From assembly GCF_000016185.1 (NCBI RefSeq), contig NC_011420.2, positions 392,501-456,500 of the forward strand: a DNA stretch of 64,000 nt, written 5' to 3'. The position numbers and the translations under genes are program-made. The DNA comes from Rhodospirillum centenum SW (GTDB lineage Bacteria > Pseudomonadota > Alphaproteobacteria > Azospirillales > Azospirillaceae). Below, piece after piece: positions 15,895-62,285 of this stretch (the stretch's first letter is position 1; each line of letters starts with the position of its first letter). The notes under the pieces are model-generated. The model saw nothing but the letters and a program-made list of their open reading frames with translations, did no database searches and was not told the origin of the DNA.

Positions 15895-16121
15895 CCCCGT
15901 CCCCGTCCGCTTCCCCGCCCGCCGTCGGGCCGGGCGCCTGCGGGAATGACGGCCGGACGGCCGCGGCGTGAAGGGACACGACCGGCGATGCCCGCGTCAG
16001 GGGCGGACCGATGCGCGCAGGAACTCCCCCCGGCACCCGTGCGCAGCATCCAGGGCGACCGCCTTGCCACCCAAGGTCGGCCCTCGCATACTTCGGACGC
16101 CTGCCCTTCCGGAGTACCCCC

Positions 16122-18197
16122 GTGCCCGCCGCCCGCCCCATGCCGACCGACCTGCCGGAAAATGACCGCGCCCTGGTGGAGGCCGCGCAGCGCGGGGTGC
16201 CATGGGCGCCGGCGGGAGAGGGTCAGCCGAACTTCGACGGGGAGATGCCGACCGTCCAGGCCAGCACCATCCGCGCCCTGTGCCTTGGGCTGTGGGACGA
16301 TGTGCGCCTGGACCCGCGCGGTATTCATATTGTCGGCGTCAGGATCGACGGGGACCTGGACCTGTCAGAGGGAACGTGTATCGGACCTTTGAAGCTTAGG
16401 GCCTGCCACCTGACAGCACCCCTCAGACTTTGGGGTGCGACGCTTCCGAGTCTGTACCTGTCCGCCAGCCGGCTGGATGCGGGCCTTCTCGCGGACAGCG
16501 TCCGTATCACAGGCGATCTGGTCTGCGATCACGGATTTCGGGCGACGGGCGACCTCCGTCTGCTTGGCGCTCGCGTTGGTGGCGACATGAGCTTTCGCAC
16601 TGCCACCCTTGCTGGAGGCGCGATGGGGGCCCTCAGTGCCGACGGGGTAACGGTCGAAGGAAGCCTCTTCTGTGACGAGGGATTCAACGCCAGAGGAACC
16701 GTCCGCCTTCCCTTCGCCCAGATAGGCCGGGATGCTTATTTTAGAAAGGCAGTACTGAATGGTGGCGAAACAATAGCCCTCTTCGCCGATGGATCTGCAA
16801 TCAAAGGAAACCTGTTCTGCGACCAGTCATTCATCACAATGGGAGCCGTTCGCATCGCAACTGCGCACGTCGGCGGCGGCGCCTTCTTCCATGGCGCAAT
16901 CCTGAACGGTGGCGGGGAATCGGCCCTCATTGGAGACAGAGCAGAGATAAGAGGCAACCTTTTCTGTAAAGACGGCTTCACCGCCAGGGGGAGCATCAAA
17001 ATCATTGCCGCCCGTATAGGTGGAAGCGCTGATTTCAATGGAGCACATCTGGACGGTGGCGGAAATGCAGCCCTGTTTGCCGACGGGGCGGACATCAGAG
17101 GCGAATTATCCTTTGGAAGTGGGTTCACTGCCAAGGGAACCGTTTGTCTTCCCTCCGCACACATAGGCGTAACCGTTTCATTCATTGACGCCGTGCTGGA
17201 TGGCGGAAGCGGACAGGCCCTCAACGCCGAAAACCTGAAAGTTCAGGGAGGGCTGCTCTGCCGGGACAAAACCAGGATCAATGGCGGCGTCTCCGTCGCC
17301 GGCATTTCGATTCAGGGGCTTCTTGATTGGCGACCGGCATCCTGGACGGGGATGCTGGATTTATCCCATGCCCGGGCAGTTGTCTGGGCGGACAACTGGT
17401 CCGGGCGCAAATGGGACTGCGACGGGGCACCGCGCATAATCCTGCGTGACTTCAGGTTCGACAGCTTCCTGGTTGCCGACTTTGTGAAGTCAGACGCGGT
17501 GTCCCGCCTGAACTGGCTCAAGGCGGCGCTGGGCGATGACTTCGTGCCCGGTCCCTATGAGAATCTCGCCCGTGTGTTGCGGGCAGCCGGGGATGATGCC
17601 GGTGCGAAGCGGGTGGGGCTGGAGAAGGAGCGCGCCCGCACCCGGCATGAAGTGAAATCCTCCAATGGAAGGCTGCCGAGGTCGGCCCGCTGGCTCTGGG
17701 GCGCCTTCCTGGACCTCACCATCGGCTATGGCTATCAGTGGTGGCGTGGCGGCGCCTTTGGCCTGCTGTTCCTGCTGCTGGTCGGCTGGGGAGTGTTCAA
17801 CTCGTCCGGGCCGCTGGACACCGGCGGGTCCGGCATCATCAAGCCGGCCCTGCCCGTGGCGTTCATCGAGGATCTGGGGCGGCGGATCGACGACAGGCCG
17901 CTCTGGCCGGGGGAGACCCCGTCCCACCACGGGATCGGGTACAGGCTGCCGCCGGAATATCCGCCGTTCAGCGGCTTCTGCTACTCGCTGGACACCCTGC
18001 TGCCCCTGATCGATCTCGGCCAGTCGGGGGCCTGGTCCCCCAGCCCGATCGCCCCGTCCTTCTGGGACGACAAGAGGGGCTGGGCCGTCACGTTCTATCT
18101 CTATTTCCACATCTTTGCCGGCTGGGGTCTATCCACGCTGATCGCCGTTGACCTGACGGGCGTGATCCAGCGGGGGACTGGCCGTCCGTCGGAGTAG
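16122..18197 (+). CDS. Membrane protein with five 49-residue repeats (membrane-associated oxidoreductase-like family)
   Basis: About 691 residues from GTG 16122, which has CCGGAG 7 bases upstream; ATG 16140 (685 residues, numbering used here) is the alternative. Residues 118-362 are five consecutive units of exactly 49 residues, each with the pattern ADG-x-x-I/V-x-GNLFCDxxF, then G-x-V/I-x-x-x-x-A-x-I/V-GG, then A-x-L-x-GG. Such spacing suggests a solenoid of short beta strands. Four units carry a Cys at the same place (129, 178, 227, 276). A linker with the segment PYENLARVLRAAGDDAGAKRV follows, then a membrane helix and YSLDTLLPLIDLGQ before a last helix. This architecture occurs in proteins named membrane-associated oxidoreductase in databases, without proven activity. 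The repeat DNA is noticeably AT-richer than its flanks. Confidence 0.8.
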   Translation: MPAARPMPTDLPENDRALVEAAQRGVPWAPAGEGQPNFDGEMPTVQASTIRALCLGLWDDVRLDPRGIHIVGVRIDGDLDLSEGTCIGPLKLRACHLTAPLRLWGATLPSLYLSASRLDAGLLADSVRITGDLVCDHGFRATGDLRLLGARVGGDMSFRTATLAGGAMGALSADGVTVEGSLFCDEGFNARGTVRLPFAQIGRDAYFRKAVLNGGETIALFADGSAIKGNLFCDQSFITMGAVRIATAHVGGGAFFHGAILNGGGESALIGDRAEIRGNLFCKDGFTARGSIKIIAARIGGSADFNGAHLDGGGNAALFADGADIRGELSFGSGFTAKGTVCLPSAHIGVTVSFIDAVLDGGSGQALNAENLKVQGGLLCRDKTRINGGVSVAGISIQGLLDWRPASWTGMLDLSHARAVVWADNWSGRKWDCDGAPRIILRDFRFDSFLVADFVKSDAVSRLNWLKAALGDDFVPGPYENLARVLRAAGDDAGAKRVGLEKERARTRHEVKSSNGRLPRSARWLWGAFLDLTIGYGYQWWRGGAFGLLFLLLVGWGVFNSSGPLDTGGSGIIKPALPVAFIEDLGRRIDDRPLWPGETPSHHGIGYRLPPEYPPFSGFCYSLDTLLPLIDLGQSGAWSPSPIAPSFWDDKRGWAVTFYLYFHIFAGWGLSTLIAVDLTGVIQRGTGRPSE
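16491..17225 (+). repeat. Five in-frame 147-bp repeats encoding the 49-residue units
   Basis: Unit boundaries by residue (ATG 16140 numbering) are 118-166, 167-215, 216-264, 265-313 and 314-362, so each unit is 147 bp with no gaps. Protein identity between neighbours is evident at the GNLFCD and ARIGG positions, while the DNA has diverged. The third and fourth units are the most AT-rich. Confidence 0.85.
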
Positions 18198-56355: not shown

Positions 56356-56732
56356 GCAACCGCCGTCCGGATCAGCGCCAGACCGGCGAACAGGCCGCCG
56401 ACCGACAACAGGAAAGAGGCCGCAACATAGGCTGCCGCAGCGCCGATTGCACCCCGTTCGACCAGCAGGGCAACGTCGAGCGAAAAGCTGGAGAAGGTGG
56501 TGAAGCCGCCGAGCACGCCCACCATCAGGAAGGCCCGCAGTTCCGGCGCCGGCTGCCAGACATGGGCGCCGAGCCCGGCCAGCACGCCCATGGCGAAGCT
56601 GCCGGTCACGTTCACCGTCATCGTCGCCCAGGGATAGGCGGTGCCCAGCCAGTGGCCCAGGCCGACACCCGTCAGATAGCGGGCCACGGCCCCGAGACCG
56701 CCGCCCGCGGCCACGGCCAGGATCATCTTCAT
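56352..56732 (-). CDS. crcB: Fluoride channel CrcB (Fluc)
   Basis: A 126-residue four-helix membrane protein that exports fluoride as a dual-topology dimer. Signatures are GGGLGAVARYL, NVTGSFAMG with the pore Asn, and GGFTTFSSFS, which supplies the Phe box and central Na+ site. ATG 56732 overlaps the DUF429 stop, and its own stop overlaps the RluC-type start. No fluoride riboswitch is seen, as expected for an internal operon gene. Confidence 0.95.
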   Translation of the reverse strand: MKMILAVAAGGGLGAVARYLTGVGLGHWLGTAYPWATMTVNVTGSFAMGVLAGLGAHVWQPAPELRAFLMVGVLGGFTTFSSFSLDVALLVERGAIGAAAAYVAASFLLSVGGLFAGLALIRTAVA

Positions 56733-57622
56733 GCGTCCACCCCGAATATCCACCCTTCGCGCCGGGCCGTCTCCGCCTCCGGCGCCGTCCAGACCCGCGC
56801 CTCTCCCGCGAGTGCGAGAAGGCCGGCGGCCGAGATCATGGCATCGCCCGTATGGTCGTCAAAGCCCTCCGGAAAGCCGGGCGGCAATGCGCAGCCGAAG
56901 GCCGCGAGCGCCCGCTCCAGCTCCGCCAGCGTGCGCAGCTTGGCCGTGCCGTGCCCGGCCCGGCGGCGGAACAGGGTCGGGTAGATCTCGCACACGACCG
57001 AGCGCGCACCGACCGGCTCCGCCGGCCAGACGGCGAGACGGCCGCCGGCCTCCCGCCGCAGCCGGCGCAGCGAGCGCATGCCGGCGAGCGACGCCTTGCC
57101 CACCTGCTTGGAGGCAGCCGCGAGCTTGAACACGGACACCGGGGTGCCGAAGCCGCCCGCGGCGGCCGCCACCTCCACCCGCCGGCGCTTGGTGGAACCG
57201 TCGCCCCAGTGCGGCGGCGTCGGCCCGGCGATCCAGAAGCTGGGCGCGAAGCGCGGATCGTGGACGACGGCACCCGCGAAATCATCCGATGCCTCGCCGG
57301 CCGCCGCCTCCACCAGATCCCAGAGCGCGAACAGGTCCGCCACCCCCGGCACGCGGCCGTCCAGATAGCCGGCGCCGGGCACCCAGGGCAGGCTGAAGGC
57401 GCAGTCGATCCCGATCAGCAGGCGCCGGCCCTGCGCGAGCCGGTCCAGCAGCCAGTTCACCGCCTCCTCCCGCCGCCAGTGGCGGCCCGGCGGCGGCACC
57501 GGCCGGACGATACGGTCCAAGGGCGAAACGACGGCGATGGCGATGCCGCGGGCCGGCTGCGCGCCGGTCCAGTCGATGCCGACATGGAGGTCGAAGGCGG
57601 TCGGGAACGGATCGGGCAGCAT
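56729..57622 (-). CDS. DUF429 family protein (RNase H-like fold)
   Basis: A 297-residue protein with conserved acidic motifs of the family: GIDWTGAQ near the N-terminus, LIGIDCAFSLP near 70, and FDDHTGDAMISAAGLLALAG near the C-terminus. Together these resemble an RNase H/resolvase-like nuclease site with D-x-D type metal ligands. Activity has not been shown for the family to my knowledge. It is the first gene of a DUF429-crcB-pseudouridine synthase run joined by 4-bp overlaps. Confidence 0.85.
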   Translation of the reverse strand: MLPDPFPTAFDLHVGIDWTGAQPARGIAIAVVSPLDRIVRPVPPPGRHWRREEAVNWLLDRLAQGRRLLIGIDCAFSLPWVPGAGYLDGRVPGVADLFALWDLVEAAAGEASDDFAGAVVHDPRFAPSFWIAGPTPPHWGDGSTKRRRVEVAAAAGGFGTPVSVFKLAAASKQVGKASLAGMRSLRRLRREAGGRLAVWPAEPVGARSVVCEIYPTLFRRRAGHGTAKLRTLAELERALAAFGCALPPGFPEGFDDHTGDAMISAAGLLALAGEARVWTAPEAETARREGWIFGVDA

Positions 57623-58071
57623 GGCAGGCTCGGCGGCGGGTCGGCCGCGACCCTATCATGGTGCTAAATACCCATCTGCCGGGCTGAGCTCCAGCCCAGG
57701 GAGTGAGATGACGGCAGCCTTGTGATGGCTTTCTGTAACCGGGCATGAGGGCGCCCGGCCCGGAGGTCATGGCCAAGCACTTGGGCCGGCAGATGAGTTG
57801 TAGGCAGCGGCGAGGCAAACGCCATCCGCTCGTTCAGGATGCTGTTGACGGAGGAATGCTCGCCCGAGAGGGGCTCTCGCACCTTGGCGTGCACAATCAC
57901 AGCCGCCAGCACCTCGTCTTTCACCCGCCGGATCAGCCACAATGGATGGCGGGGCGATCTCGGTTCTTCAACGAAACGCATCGGAATGCCCCAGCTTGGT
58001 CCGACCGATGCCCCAGAATTCAGCGTATGACGCGGAGAGTCATACGACGGTATCCGGATTCAAAGGTGTCT
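57623..58071. other. 449-bp region between DUF429 and the DUF3644 island, possible remnant
   Basis: No recognisable gene. A minus-strand frame (57664-57981, 105 codons) has no family I know and its composition is mixed. A hairpin-type sequence GGGCTG-AGCTC-CAGCCC lies near 57685, and a perfect 8-bp hairpin lies at 58024-58046. G+C falls gradually from left to right, which fits a junction between core chromosome and an acquired segment, possibly with debris of a former mobile element. Confidence 0.45.
58024..58046 (-). terminator. Perfect 8-bp hairpin after the DUF3644 gene
   Basis: CGTATGAC and GTCATACG pair around a 7-base loop, 26 bp beyond the stop codon on the minus strand. A further dyad TGAGTT-GAT-AACTCA (58080-58094) covers the last codons of the gene. 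No T run follows, so it may end transcription weakly or mark an element boundary. Confidence 0.5.
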
Positions 58072-59271
58072 TCAGCTACTGAGTTGATAACTCAGTATCG
58101 CCTGCCACTTCCCGTCATCTGCAACCTCGGCAACAAGGCGCTCAACCCAACTTCTCGAATAAGTGTAATCGCCATGCGCCGAGTGGTAAACACAATATTC
58201 CTTTTTGGTATTTTGAGGAAAAGAATCGCCCTTACGCGGCCTTACTTCATGCAAGCGCCAAGCTTGGTTATGATTATGCAAGCTAAAAGCCCGCCCGGTT
58301 CGTCGCGAAACTTCCTCGCACACCACCTTAGGCTTATAAGGATGGGTTTCGTCCGCGGGTCGAAATTTGACCAAGACATTTCGAATCTCTTTGGCCTCAG
58401 CCGATTCCGACTGTACGAATTGGAAATGTGAGCGGCTCTTTGATGCGCTGTCCAGGGTATAGATCACACGGAACTGGTAATCCAGGTCGGTCAACTCCTC
58501 CTCGGTCAGACCGTCCCGCAGGCGGGCGTCGAGAGCCTCTATATGTTCGGGAATATCGTGCTTTTGGAGTTCGGCCACTTGGCCAAGGCTCAGTTTCGAG
58601 AATTGCAGGGCAAAGGCCAAATCGCCTTGCAGCGAGAGAGACTCACCAAACAGATCACGGATTATGCGGTCAAAATTCAAACAGCAGGCTTGAAAAAGGG
58701 GCAGCCACTTTGAATCGGCCTTACCCAGGATGTTGTGTTCGACAGCGTCCCGAATATCCTTGAGCGCATTCAAATTGCGTTTCATGCCATCAGAAAGTGG
58801 GCAGTCGTCACGCTTAACCATGTAGCTCAACGACCACGTCTTCCCTTCGGCATCGGTGATTGTACCCCGCTTCCGAATGTAGTGTTCGTGCAGGAGGTAA
58901 GTCCAAGCCACATTCGCCAAAATTGCGAACATTTCTGTCTTGAAAATTACGGTCGGACTGTTGAAAACTTGAACAGCAACAATCATTGCCTCTCGTGCCC
59001 GCACCAACCTCTCATCTTCGAAGGCATTCAAGCCGGTACGCGGGTCAAACGCTTTCTTTCTGGCGATGAATCCCTCGACAACCTCATCTGACGCGGCAAC
59101 AATATTGTCAGACCTCTTAACCTCGGTAATGCGCGCGCTATTGACCGTTGCTTTGCGACCAACGTTCAGCATTGCCTGAATATCCTGATTGCGATACCCT
59201 CTATTCAGCAAGGCCTTCACTACCGGCTTTTCATTAGCAGTCAAAGAACCATTGCGGTTTCTTACGACCAT
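58072..59271 (-). CDS. DUF3644 domain protein with HEPN-like RxxxxH motif, putative defence gene
   Basis: A 399-residue cytoplasmic protein. Residues about 9-50 look like a helix-turn-helix (GYRNQDIQAMLNVGRKATVN). Residues about 88-235 match DUF3644, with AMIVAVQVFNSPTVIFKTEM, then LANVAWTYLLHEHYI. The stretch DIRDAVEH supplies Arg174-x4-His179, the R-x4-6-H signature of HEPN ribonucleases. The C-terminal part (about 300-399) with RAFSLHNHNQAWRLHEVRP resembles a winged-helix or recognition domain. HEPN/DUF3644 proteins are frequent in phage-defence neighbourhoods; that role here is inference. The gene is clearly AT-richer and uses other codons than its neighbours. A good sigma70-type promoter precedes it. 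Confidence 0.75.
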   Translation of the reverse strand: MVVRNRNGSLTANEKPVVKALLNRGYRNQDIQAMLNVGRKATVNSARITEVKRSDNIVAASDEVVEGFIARKKAFDPRTGLNAFEDERLVRAREAMIVAVQVFNSPTVIFKTEMFAILANVAWTYLLHEHYIRKRGTITDAEGKTWSLSYMVKRDDCPLSDGMKRNLNALKDIRDAVEHNILGKADSKWLPLFQACCLNFDRIIRDLFGESLSLQGDLAFALQFSKLSLGQVAELQKHDIPEHIEALDARLRDGLTEEELTDLDYQFRVIYTLDSASKSRSHFQFVQSESAEAKEIRNVLVKFRPADETHPYKPKVVCEEVSRRTGRAFSLHNHNQAWRLHEVRPRKGDSFPQNTKKEYCVYHSAHGDYTYSRSWVERLVAEVADDGKWQAILSYQLSS

Positions 59272-59600
59272 GCCGCCAACCTTTCAGTCGTTGTGCATGG
59301 CAAGCATACTTCGGCAGGAGATTTGGATCAAAGGCATATCACCACACCTTGCATCACTCGACTTTCTGCCTATCGGGGCATACGATTTTTATGCCTACGG
59401 TGCGGCTTAGTCCATCTCAGGGCTCGCTTGGAAAGCCTTGAAGCCGGGTTGGTGGTAGGTTCAGGTGGGACATTAACCAGAGCTAGATTCTGTCAGAGAC
59501 TTTCCGGACCGCCAGCAAAGATGGCGGGGACCCGCCCTGCCCTCGCCCCGATCGTTCGGCTATGCTCGGGGTCCCAACGGTTTGGCCGGGACGGTCGGAC
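59272..59600. other. Upstream flank of the DUF3644 gene
   Basis: Contains the DUF3644 promoter (59303-59331). From about 59330 to 59500 the composition stays AT-richer than the chromosome, then returns to GC-rich by about 59520, which I take as the right edge of the acquired segment. No tRNA, integrase or direct repeat was recognised. Confidence 0.5.
59303..59331 (-). promoter_or_regulatory. Sigma70-type promoter of the DUF3644 gene
   Basis: On the minus strand, TTGATC (-35, 59331-59326) and TATGCT (-10, 59308-59303) are separated by exactly 17 bp. The predicted start of transcription would be about 25 bases before the ATG at 59271. It fits the enteric consensus better than most promoters in this GC-rich window. 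Confidence 0.6.
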
Positions 59601-59951
59601 ATGCGGATCGGATACTGGACGGCAGGCGCGGCGATGGCCGCCTTTTTCCTTCTGCCCGGCCCCGCCCGGGCACAGGGCACGCCGCCGCCGGCCGGCCCCC
59701 CGCAGGACGCGGGCTCCAACGCGGCAGAGGAGCCGCCGGAGGAGATTGTCATCATCGGCCGGCGGCGGCCGACGCCCGACTTCCAGGAGCAGTACGAATT
59801 CCACAAGGCGGAGTTCGAGCGGCTGCGGCAGATCTATGAGGAACCCCCACCCCCGCCCCGCTATTCGCCCGGGGAGCGGAAGCTGCGGGTGCAGGAGAGC
59901 ATCTCCTCCACCCTGCCCGGCAAGCCCACCCTGCTGGACCGCGCGAACTGA
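59601..59951 (+). CDS. Small exported protein with a TonB-box-like segment
   Basis: A 116-residue protein with a clear signal peptide (MRIGYWTAGAAMAAFFLLPG, cleavage after ARA/AQ), a Pro/Gly/Glu-rich spacer, then EEIVIIGRRR at 47-56, which resembles the EEIVVTGRR entry of TonB-dependent receptors. A charged helical stretch and a Pro-rich run follow. It is not long enough for a plug or barrel. It may be a periplasmic protein of unknown role, found next to but convergent with a TonB receptor. The ribosome site is weak. Confidence 0.6.
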   Translation: MRIGYWTAGAAMAAFFLLPGPARAQGTPPPAGPPQDAGSNAAEEPPEEIVIIGRRRPTPDFQEQYEFHKAEFERLRQIYEEPPPPPRYSPGERKLRVQESISSTLPGKPTLLDRAN

Positions 59952-59971
59952 GCGGCCCTCCCGCGAACAGG

Positions 59972-59999
59972 AACGGCCCCGATGCGGACATCGGGGCCG
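59972..59999. terminator. Bidirectional hairpin between convergent genes
   Basis: ACGGCCCCGATG and CATCGGGGCCGT pair perfectly over 12 bp around CGGA. It is 20 bp after the small exported protein gene and 27 bp beyond the end of the TonB receptor gene. T-rich tails are weak on both sides, but position and stem strength argue for termination. Confidence 0.75.
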
Positions 60000-60026
60000 T
60001 CCTGACGGATGCGGGTCCTTGCCGCC

Positions 60027-62285
60027 TTACGGCAGCCTGGCCGTGAACGAGATGCCGACGGTCATCGGATCGTTCACGACGGCGGCGAGATAGTTCTCGA
60101 TCACGCCCTTGACGTTCTTCTCGTTGGTGATGTTGCGGCCGAACAGGGCCACCTCGTAGGTCCGGTCCGGATTCTCGTAGCCGATCTTCAGCCCGCCCTC
60201 GAAGTCGCCCTTGCTGTAGAACTCCTCCGACTCGTACAGCACGAAGTTCGTGCGGCCGGTCATGTTCCAGTCGGTGAACAGGAACAGGTTGCTGCCGTCG
60301 GCCAGCGGCATGTTGTACCGGGCGGTCAGGCTGAGGATGTATTCCGGCGCGTTCGGGAACGGGTTGCCGTCGATCTTCGCGCGGCCGTTCACCAGCGGGT
60401 CCTTCACCGTGCAGACGCCGCCCGAGCAGATCGACGTGGTGACCTGATCGTCCTTGATCTCGGTATCGGTGTAGGTCAGGCCGGCGGTGATGATGAAGTC
60501 CGGCGTCAGGAAGGCTTCGGCATCCACCTCAAGGCCGTAGGCGACGCCCTTGTCCGCGTTCAGCAGACGGGCGGTGCCGTTGCCGTCGAAGGCGGTGAGC
60601 TGGATGTCGTTGACCGTGTAGGTGTAGACGGCGCCGTTCAGGCGCAGCCGGTCGTCCAGCAGGCTGCTCTTCAGGCCGGCCTCGTAGGAGAGGATCGTCT
60701 CCGAGGTGGCGGTCGTCGGGGCGCCGTTGAAGGAGACCGTGCGGCCCTGGATGGTCGGGCCGCGGAAGCCGCGGGCGATGCGGCCGAACACCGACACCTC
60801 GTCGGTCAGGTCGTAGAAGGCGCTGGCGTCCCAGCTCAGCTCGTCGTCCTTCAGCTCGACATGGCGGATGCCGGTGTAGGACGCCTGCGTGATCCGGCGG
60901 CCGTCCTCCACGCTGGTGAAGGTGCCGGCCTGCAGGGCGCGCAGGACGTTCATCTCCTTCTTGTCCTCGGTCCAGCGCAGGCCGCCGGTGAGCTTCAGGT
61001 CGTCGGTGATCCGGTAGCCGGCCTGACCGAACAGGGCCCAGGACCTGTTCTCGTTGCCCAGCGTGACGAAGCCGCTGGCGCCGCCCGTCTCGAAGAAATT
61101 GTACGGACGGAAGGTGAGCTGCTCGTCGGAATCGAAGTAGAAGCCGCCGACCTGCCAGTTGAGCGGGCCCGTCGTGTCGCTGGCGAGGCGCAGCTCCTGC
61201 GTCCACTGGTCCAGATCGTCGATGTTGCCCTGGGACTCGGCGAAGTTGCCGGCGGTGCCGTCGGTGTCGCCGCGGCTGTAGCCGTTCGTCGTCTCGTAGG
61301 CGGTGATCGAGGTCAGGACGACATTGCCGAAGTCGTGATCGACCTTCAGCGAGCTGCCCCAGCCCTCATAGGACTGGTCGTTGGCGTCGCCGTCGTTGTA
61401 GGCGACCTTGTCCTTGTCGTAGTTGCCGTTCAGCTTGTGGCTGCCCTTGGTCAGGGCGTAGCCGCGGAACAGGGTGGAGGTGGCGTCGAGATCGCGGCCG
61501 TGAACGTTCAGCAGGACGTCGGTGTCCTCGCCCGGGGTCAGCAGGAACTGGACGCGGGCGGCCTTGTCGTCGTAGCCGCCCAGCTTGGTGCCGTCGGCCG
61601 TGTTGTCCACCCAGTCGCCGCGGTGCTGCACCATGGCGGAGGCGCGGATGGCGAGCACGCCGTCGATCAGCGAGCCGCCGACACCGGCATCGGCCGTCAC
61701 CGTGCCGAAGGTGCCGTAGGTGACGGTGCCGCGCCCCTGGGTCTCATGGCTCGGGGCGATCGAGTCGAACTTGATGATGCCGGCCGTGGTGTTGCGGCCG
61801 AACAGGGTGCCCTGCGGCCCGCGCATCACCTCGACCTGCTGCGTGTCGAACAGCGGCGAGCTTTTCAGCACCACGTTCTCCATCACCACATCGTCGATGA
61901 TGATGGAGACGGGCTGCGAGGCGCCCAGGTAGAAATCGTTGTTGCCCAGGCCGCGGATGTAGAAGCGCGGGAAGATGCGGCCGGTCGAGGTCTCCGCATA
62001 GAGGCCCGGCACGCGGCCCGACAGCGCCAGCACGTCACCGCCGCCGGCCAGATAGTCGCGGAAGGTGTCGCCGGAGATGGCCGCCACGGACACCGGCACC
62101 TCCTGGAGGTTCTCGCTGCGCCGCTGCGCGGTGACGATGATCTCCTCCAGGGCCGGTTCCGCCGGCTGGGCGGTCTGGGCCGCGACACCGGCCGGCACGA
62201 GCAGCGCCAGGGCGGAAAGCCCGGCGTTCAGAGCATGCTTGAGCTGCACTTGGGTCCTCATCAGTCGGTTCAGGCGGCTGGACAT
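60027..62285 (-). CDS. TonB-dependent outer membrane receptor
   Basis: A 752-residue receptor from ATG 62285 (ATG 62261 is the alternative; an AGG sits 5-6 bases before the first). The signal peptide has a basic start and hydrophobic core ending AGVAAQT. The plug opens LEEIIVTAQRRSENLQEVP and includes VEVMRGPQGTLFGRNTTAG, the pattern of the FecA/FpvA-like and polysaccharide-type receptors common in sphingomonads and Caulobacter. The barrel has RNITNEKNV near its end. The last residues are SFTARLP, so the usual terminal aromatic residue is missing. The substrate is unknown. Confidence 0.92.
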   Translation of the reverse strand: MSSRLNRLMRTQVQLKHALNAGLSALALLVPAGVAAQTAQPAEPALEEIIVTAQRRSENLQEVPVSVAAISGDTFRDYLAGGGDVLALSGRVPGLYAETSTGRIFPRFYIRGLGNNDFYLGASQPVSIIIDDVVMENVVLKSSPLFDTQQVEVMRGPQGTLFGRNTTAGIIKFDSIAPSHETQGRGTVTYGTFGTVTADAGVGGSLIDGVLAIRASAMVQHRGDWVDNTADGTKLGGYDDKAARVQFLLTPGEDTDVLLNVHGRDLDATSTLFRGYALTKGSHKLNGNYDKDKVAYNDGDANDQSYEGWGSSLKVDHDFGNVVLTSITAYETTNGYSRGDTDGTAGNFAESQGNIDDLDQWTQELRLASDTTGPLNWQVGGFYFDSDEQLTFRPYNFFETGGASGFVTLGNENRSWALFGQAGYRITDDLKLTGGLRWTEDKKEMNVLRALQAGTFTSVEDGRRITQASYTGIRHVELKDDELSWDASAFYDLTDEVSVFGRIARGFRGPTIQGRTVSFNGAPTTATSETILSYEAGLKSSLLDDRLRLNGAVYTYTVNDIQLTAFDGNGTARLLNADKGVAYGLEVDAEAFLTPDFIITAGLTYTDTEIKDDQVTTSICSGGVCTVKDPLVNGRAKIDGNPFPNAPEYILSLTARYNMPLADGSNLFLFTDWNMTGRTNFVLYESEEFYSKGDFEGGLKIGYENPDRTYEVALFGRNITNEKNVKGVIENYLAAVVNDPMTVGISFTARLP

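Follow-up and report, generated by a model that had tools for sequence, protein, structure and literature searches.

Among solved structures, the closest folds to the middle domain of the protein described here belong to HepT toxins and Csm6 HEPN nucleases (6m6u, 8xdj, 8pe3). A nucleotidyltransferase antitoxin accompanies HepT, and Csm6 responds to CRISPR second messengers; neither kind of partner was seen beside the DUF3644 gene among the ORFs of the window, by which we mean the whole 64-kb stretch of DNA that was analysed. For the EC042_2821 family, which 'overlaps with DUF3644', the relevant passages of Anantharaman et al. (2013; PMC3710099) predict a wHTH–HEPN(DUF3644)–REase architecture and a role in defence. 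The window protein resembles the family as described there in its R-x4-H HEPN motif, its N-terminal HTH (some family members have an N-terminal (w)HTH) and its homologous C-terminal domain, and some of its DUF3644 relatives lie beside restriction–modification (R-M) genes. It departs from that description in three respects: the model of its C-terminal domain is a winged helix and not a REase, its score for PF18740 falls below the cut-off, and the window copy lies outside any R-M operon.

A defence label is also carried by PDC-S19, a single-gene phage defence candidate in PADLOC, eight models of which match the 399-aa window protein (best E 1.4e-54, aa 83–364); these models begin at the HEPN part, whereas the window protein has an additional HTH at its N-terminus. 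We found no phage or RNase test of the DUF3644/PDC-S19 family in the literature searched, and no PDC passage in those parts of PADLOC's 2022 paper that were covered. Two further candidates from PADLOC were tried, according to the pertinent section of PMC12409345, and no evidence of defence emerged, so the label is no proof of function.

A working counterpart is Tha of Staphylococcus aureus prophages, which the main account in PMC11087260 describes as a HEPN RNase that protects against phages, protection being lost in the H270A mutant. As in Tha, the HEPN domain is part of a single chain, carries R-x4-H and, in relatives of the window protein, is encoded in the phage region between integrase and CI repressor; tha in 80alpha occupies the same integrase–repressor region as the DUF3644 relatives, the 301-aa gene of the 80alpha record being taken as tha from its length and its overlap with 'xis'. 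Tha itself has its HEPN domain at the C-terminus of its 301 aa and an antisense inhibitor gene, as reported in the same account, so the comparison is only with how it works. Tha is switched on by phage minor tail proteins. As a sequence relative Tha was rejected: BLASTP gave E 0.55, and the Tha-like 80alpha protein has no DUF3644 match (E up to 0.1) and belongs to another PHROG.

Since both the architecture and the role were predicted in 2013, and PADLOC has its PDC-S19 entry, this is not a new system. What is new here is the phage-region evidence for the DUF3644 family, the deep invariance of its motif and a likely relabelling of PF18740. Relatives occur on plasmids and in phages and satellites of Gram-positive hosts, yet the name DUF3644 is printed in a single paper of the literature searched.

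The DUF3644/HEPN gene (58072–59271, minus strand) is a single ORF whose product matches DUF3644 (PF12358) over aa 89–253 with 150.6 bits against a gathering cut-off of 27.6 (E 4.8e-44), a match shared by 31/31 members of a 31-row alignment of close homologues (E up to 1). Its own genome, a single contig of 4,355,543 bases, contains no other DUF3644 match. The sequence-only reading had described a lone gene of foreign composition, and the composition bears this out: GC is 0.504 in the gene against 0.687 in the whole window, the lowest GC of any 1200-bp segment of the 64 kb (step 100) is 0.505, and a 1-kb GC profile has its minimum at 58001–59500. GC3 is 0.562, as compared with 0.90–0.935 in five neighbouring genes. 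The other clear dip in GC, 0.587 at 16501–17500, falls within a frame at 16011–18197 (plus) of 728 aa, whose internal repeats and hydrophobic C-terminal portion give it, by eye, the look of a repeat-bearing membrane protein.

To the left of the gene lies a conserved gene with no Pfam match (56729–57622, minus), found in 29/59 genomes including its own, and to the right a small gene (59562–59951, plus) whose homologue adjoins the left-flank gene in eight relatives' loci (L010, L011, L014 and L017–L021), with three strong matches (E 3e-9 or better) and five weak ones (E 4e-6 to 7e-5). The matched parts of the two flank genes are 222–510 bp apart in those loci as against about 2.1 kb in the window, and a DUF3644 query against the fetched flank loci of relatives matched the window's own locus only. 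As had been supposed, it is a solitary gene with conserved genes on both sides; in relatives the site is empty, and 57623–59600 is a fair outline of the insertion. Its distribution is patchy. With the window's own genome included each time, DUF3644 is present in 6/59 genomes and in 17/385 genomes of the class, and the window protein itself in 4/82 genomes of its taxonomic family; together with the eight empty loci, the last two counts show that it is not a core locus conserved in all relatives. The closest homologue (locus L038, 82% protein identity) shares DNA similarity over the gene and about 136 bp upstream of it, after which similarity ends. Furthermore, GC is lower in the gene than in the surrounding DNA in 30/30 loci (mean difference 0.11, smallest 0.003; the count omits L059 and L060, which have the same figures as L058 in the locus list). 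The DUF3644 gene is an insertion of foreign, AT-rich DNA, and the adjacency of the flanks in relatives, the end of similarity upstream and the low GC throughout the 30 loci together indicate that it moves, AT-rich, among hosts.

The full-length AF2 model, built from 31 sequences (mean pLDDT 78.3, pTM 0.58), begins with an N-terminal HTH and four long helices within aa 87–208, followed by a stretch that is poorly predicted and then by the C-terminal domain. The N-terminal HTH (aa 1–62; 59086–59271, minus) is modelled with helices at 14–23, 28–35 and 45–53, and aa 10–58 superpose on the HTH found in small terminases of phages (Z 5.5, rmsd 1.9, over a short alignment of 49 residues), in agreement with the HTH-like N-terminus noticed earlier. 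When this HTH was searched for in other proteins it was found in 4/289 genomes, three of the matches being DUF3644 genes; the fourth (E 5e-4) was dropped, its frame resembling what is presumably a relaxase-helicase.

The HEPN domain (aa 76–211; 58639–59046, minus), to which Pfam, the model and fold matches all point, has helices at 87–104, 111–135, 161–177 and 190–208. Its predicted active site is R174-D-A-V-E-H179 (RDAVEH, 174–179; 58735–58752, minus). In the model R174 is close to where helix 3 (161–177) ends and H179 follows in the loop after it, so that the two residues are together and not apart, and this is the placement given for the HEPN motif in the structural passages of PMC3710099. 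The best VIA-align match of the middle domain was HepT (6m6u; Z 9.8, rmsd 2.9, 113 aligned), followed by the AF0298 HEPN protein (2hsb, Z 9.6), the HEPN structure 4nqf and 1wwp, also listed as HEPN in PMC3710099 (Z 9.0), and an AMPylated HEPN toxin (8xdj, Z 8.9), although the tool warns that, for helical bundles, scores below a Z of about 13 may reflect nothing more than packing. In two to three of the top eight rows HEPN is missing from the title (rows 6–8: 1ufb, 3mfn and 3c18; Z 8.4–8.0), and Csm6' (8pe3) stands at Z 7.8. The first row that we take to be unrelated to HEPN has Z 6.7. Foldseek searches with the full-length and C-terminal models were uninformative, with no E below 1 for the full-length model. 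By sequence, no solved relative was found at E up to 10, whether the query was the single protein or the phage/plasmid profile, and the close-homologue profile yielded one weak HTH protein, EsrB (E 0.069).

Rx4-6H is the motif of the HEPN superfamily, whose RNases act as metal-independent dimers, and its conservation here is deep. R174 and H179 are invariant in 33/33 close full-length homologues, the window protein included, in 14/14 diverse members that are 17–82% identical to the query, and in the copies on 8/8 viral contigs; among the 14 diverse members only six columns are invariant, the motif R and H among them. The count of 33 followed removal, from 37 genome loci, of five ORFs outside 350–480 aa (L063, L067, L068, L071 and L073), and the 31-row alignment also lacks L059 and L060, with the same figures as L058. 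All full-length homologues examined keep R-x4-H. Four of the frames set aside are shortened relative to about 400 aa (L067, 326 aa; L068, 248; L071, 237; L073, 129), whether by gene decay or through a sequencing or assembly error, and the shortest, which was not counted, lacks the motif. Assignment of the modelled middle domain to HEPN is supported, because the motif has both the expected placement and this invariance, fold Z on its own being open to the packing effect; the signature proposed from the sequence, with HEPN structures leading the fold list, stands. The HEPN domain is followed by a mostly low-confidence linker (aa 212–305; 58357–58638, minus; pLDDT <50 at 225–238, 269–288 and 292–305).

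Relatives of the gene travel on phages and plasmids. In a phage collection 41/50,697 records carry one: 27 from Streptococcus (25 of them satellites), 10 from Staphylococcus, two from Listeria and two others. In Javan463 and Javan254 the relative has the repressor on one side and the integrase on the other; it adjoins the integrase in S-CoN_Ph25, and in a Listeria phage three small genes separate the two. Hotspots of defence genes in prophages and satellites are documented in the pertinent part of PMC9122126. Plasmid records with a relative number 26/72,556, with hosts that include Pseudomonadota, Actinomycetota and Bacteroidota, and one plasmid copy lies 60 bp behind a DNA methyltransferase gene. 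Eight viral contigs hold copies 50–53% identical, and their neighbours include terminase and primase families (4/102 proteins each). The phage members make up phrog_9605, which the Javan463 protein matches at E 2.9e-120 and the window protein at E 1.9e-18. Its function is unassigned, and the label 'HEPN, defence candidate' would suit it better.

The sequence-only reading had suggested a search for defence genes around DUF3644 relatives, and in bacterial genomes restriction and Abi genes were found as neighbours. Near neighbours were 116 of the 206 ORFs within 4 kb of 32 loci (the two nearest per side, ≤1500 aa), and far proteins were 70 ORFs >6 kb away in 29 loci (at most two per side, the outermost skipped). 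PADLOC families (E up to 1e-10) numbered 128 among the 116 near neighbours and 2 among the 70 far proteins, a measure that counts families, and so gives large helicases too much weight, in sets that also differ in size. Ten tightly spaced neighbours were scanned singly, and five had a PADLOC match. At L049, in Roseospira, the DUF3644 gene has a type III methyltransferase on one side and a UvrD helicase on the other; the remaining three matches are a type I restriction subunit (L066), a Snf2-type helicase (L069) and another PADLOC candidate (L052). The five with no match include NAD synthase, gyrase and a sulphur transporter, and several of these neighbours are housekeeping genes. R-M genes lie beside the relatives at L049, L066 and L095. 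Around the window copy there is neither a defence island nor a recognizable prophage, and no Pfam family recurs in >2 of the 116 near neighbours. With no recurrent partner, and with defence genes in the company of some relatives, the gene looks autonomous; it favours defence islands but does not need them.

We put at roughly 65% the probability that the DUF3644 gene is a mobile, stand-alone anti-phage gene encoding a HEPN RNase that acts by abortive infection. The computed support consists of the insertion, the single-gene layout, the HEPN fold, the invariant R-x4-H, the C-terminal winged helix considered below, mobile carriage and defence neighbours. The C-terminal recognition-type domain and the single-gene defence device first proposed from the sequence, as predicted functions, are supported by the model, by conservation and by the context of relatives. 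We infer the RNA cleavage, dimerization, silencing at rest, trigger and cell arrest that would make up the mechanism. In the uninfected cell the protein would be kept inactive within its own chain. A phage cue would be recognized, most likely by the HTH and winged-helix parts or by the flexible linker, and two HEPN domains would then come together so that R174 and H179 line the cleft they form. RNA would be cut, growth would stop and the phage would be stopped with it. If this is right, DUF3644 would be a second HEPN family, beside Tha, in the defence cargo of the prophage integrase–repressor region. The gene is compact and needs no partner to be cloned with it, its active site is invariant with a catalytic mutant to hand, and sensor domains are likely at either end, which makes it easy to test.

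The gene could instead be a stand-alone toxin or addiction gene that stabilizes mobile elements or halts growth under stress, with no specific anti-phage purpose. HEPN proteins are the toxins of HepT-type pairs, as the section on them in PMC3710099 sets out, and carriage on plasmids (26/72,556) and phages would suit such a gene. We nevertheless regard it as unlikely, since the lack of a recurrent partner gene among the 116 neighbours leaves no antitoxin evident, and relatives keep company with defence genes and sit in the lysogeny regions of phages.

The C-terminal domain (aa 306–399; 58075–58356, minus), which the sequence-only reading had taken for a possible recognition domain, is related to PF18740, and its model is a winged helix of the MerR type. 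Modelled alone, it gave pLDDT 87.8 and pTM 0.78, with helices and one beta hairpin. The first seven rows of its fold search were HiNmlR, GlnR, RacA, TnrA, CadR, MtaN and BmrR (Z 5.8–4.7), some of which we take to be MerR members; two further MerR-type chains are at rows 9 and 13, and ribosome-assembly chains (Z 4.7–4.5) tie with the lower MerR-type rows. In the whole-protein fold search this region was matched by CarH (Z 6.2). The link to PF18740 (EC042_2821 domain) is sub-threshold in the window protein itself (aa 308–386, E 0.12, 13.4 bits against a cut-off of 24.9). It is stronger through relatives: a profile of the C-terminal domain matched a profile of seven phage and plasmid members at 98.4% (E 5.6e-15), and one of those seven scores 108.7 bits for PF18740. 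A PF18740 scan of 299 genomes of the phylum gave one weak match and none above the cut-off, and so no stronger member from there. The confident MerR-like model and the profile link to a PF18740 member lead us to read PF18740, in the DUF3644 family, as likely to be a MerR-type winged helix and not a REase, with fold Z-scores that are moderate. If the winged-helix model is right, the Pfam label needs correction and the search for a trigger should begin with nucleic acids. More tentatively, and with the odds against it, the protein may be a nucleic-acid-triggered single-chain RNase, in which the HTH modules at the two ends would hold an invader DNA cue and activate HEPN, PF18740 would be a mislabelled MerR-type winged helix with no REase present, and DNA binding would be coupled to RNA cleavage with no guide RNA, second messenger or partner protein.

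The opposite view of the same domain is that the protein is a DNA-directed restriction enzyme, whose C-terminal REase fold cuts foreign DNA and whose HEPN domain is a back-up toxin. The C-terminal domain is labelled REase-like as EC042_2821_CTD in the passage of PMC3710099 that treats it, and PF18740 carries the REase label in Pfam; with E allowed up to 1, 22/31 close members match PF18740, the best of them at 2e-5, and relatives lie beside R-M genes. Moreover, the REase domain described in that passage is about 180 aa long, as compared with the 97 positions of PF18740, so that part of it may fall in the badly modelled linker. Set against this are the model of the C-terminal domain (pLDDT 87.8), whose first seven fold rows are of MerR type, and the near-invariant columns of a 30-row C-terminal alignment (L072 left out, L039 trimmed shorter), in which no conserved D/E-x-K pair was seen. 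REase chains were also missing from the listed rows of the C-terminal fold search, which by itself proves nothing. We consider a restriction enzyme improbable. In the same alignment H, C and H at aa 334, 360 and 363 (58183–58272, minus) are invariant, and some distant members lack part of this set; these residues might bind metal or hold the wing together.

That the protein is a regulator, with HEPN merely a dimerizing or binding scaffold between two DNA-binding ends, seems very improbable in spite of the HTH-type folds at both ends and the position next to repressors in phages, because a scaffold would not need the motif, which is wholly or partly lost in the HEPN domains fused to nucleotidyltransferases that PMC3710099 discusses, whereas here the motif R and H are among only six invariant columns at 17–82% identity, and occurrence is patchy (17/385 genomes).

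The DUF3644 gene had also been credited with its own consensus promoter and with hairpins at its 3' end. Upstream, the stretch common to L038 (59272–59407, minus) holds a weak promoter-like pair at 59303–59331. A standard scan of 57500–59800 (9 of 12) gave no site on the gene's strand; a laxer one (8 of 12) gave two within 330 bp upstream, with 0.27 expected and at least one such site in 23% of simulated sequences. At the nearer site TTGATC is kept in L038 and the −10 is not. The two 8-of-12 sites lend a promoter weak support, whereas a consensus match is absent at 9 of 12. Hairpins beyond chance find no support: the region of the 8-bp stem-loop 3' of the stop codon (58024–58046, minus) folds no better than shuffles (z 0.06), and a terminator scan listed nothing at the gene's 3' end.

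No Rfam family matched 57000–60400 at gathering level, and a small ORF at 57664–57981 (minus) has no plasmid and no Pfam match. Inverted arms of 13 nt, 92% complementary, at 57670–57682 and 57786–57798 (270–400 bp past the gene end) fold better than most shuffles (z −2.4), and a DNA search of the genome with 57623–58071 found no second copy of this part; the stretch 57670–57798 is perhaps a trace of a small mobile element. A possible insertion-sequence relic at 57902–58013 (minus) has no Pfam match and a 76% copy elsewhere in the genome; presumably a transposase label applies to it. About 0.4 kb from that second copy, and outside the window, lies a gene for a DarT-type ADP-ribosyltransferase toxin (Pfam DarT, E 5.3e-67) at G000:C1:513039–513695 (L117:40–696, minus).
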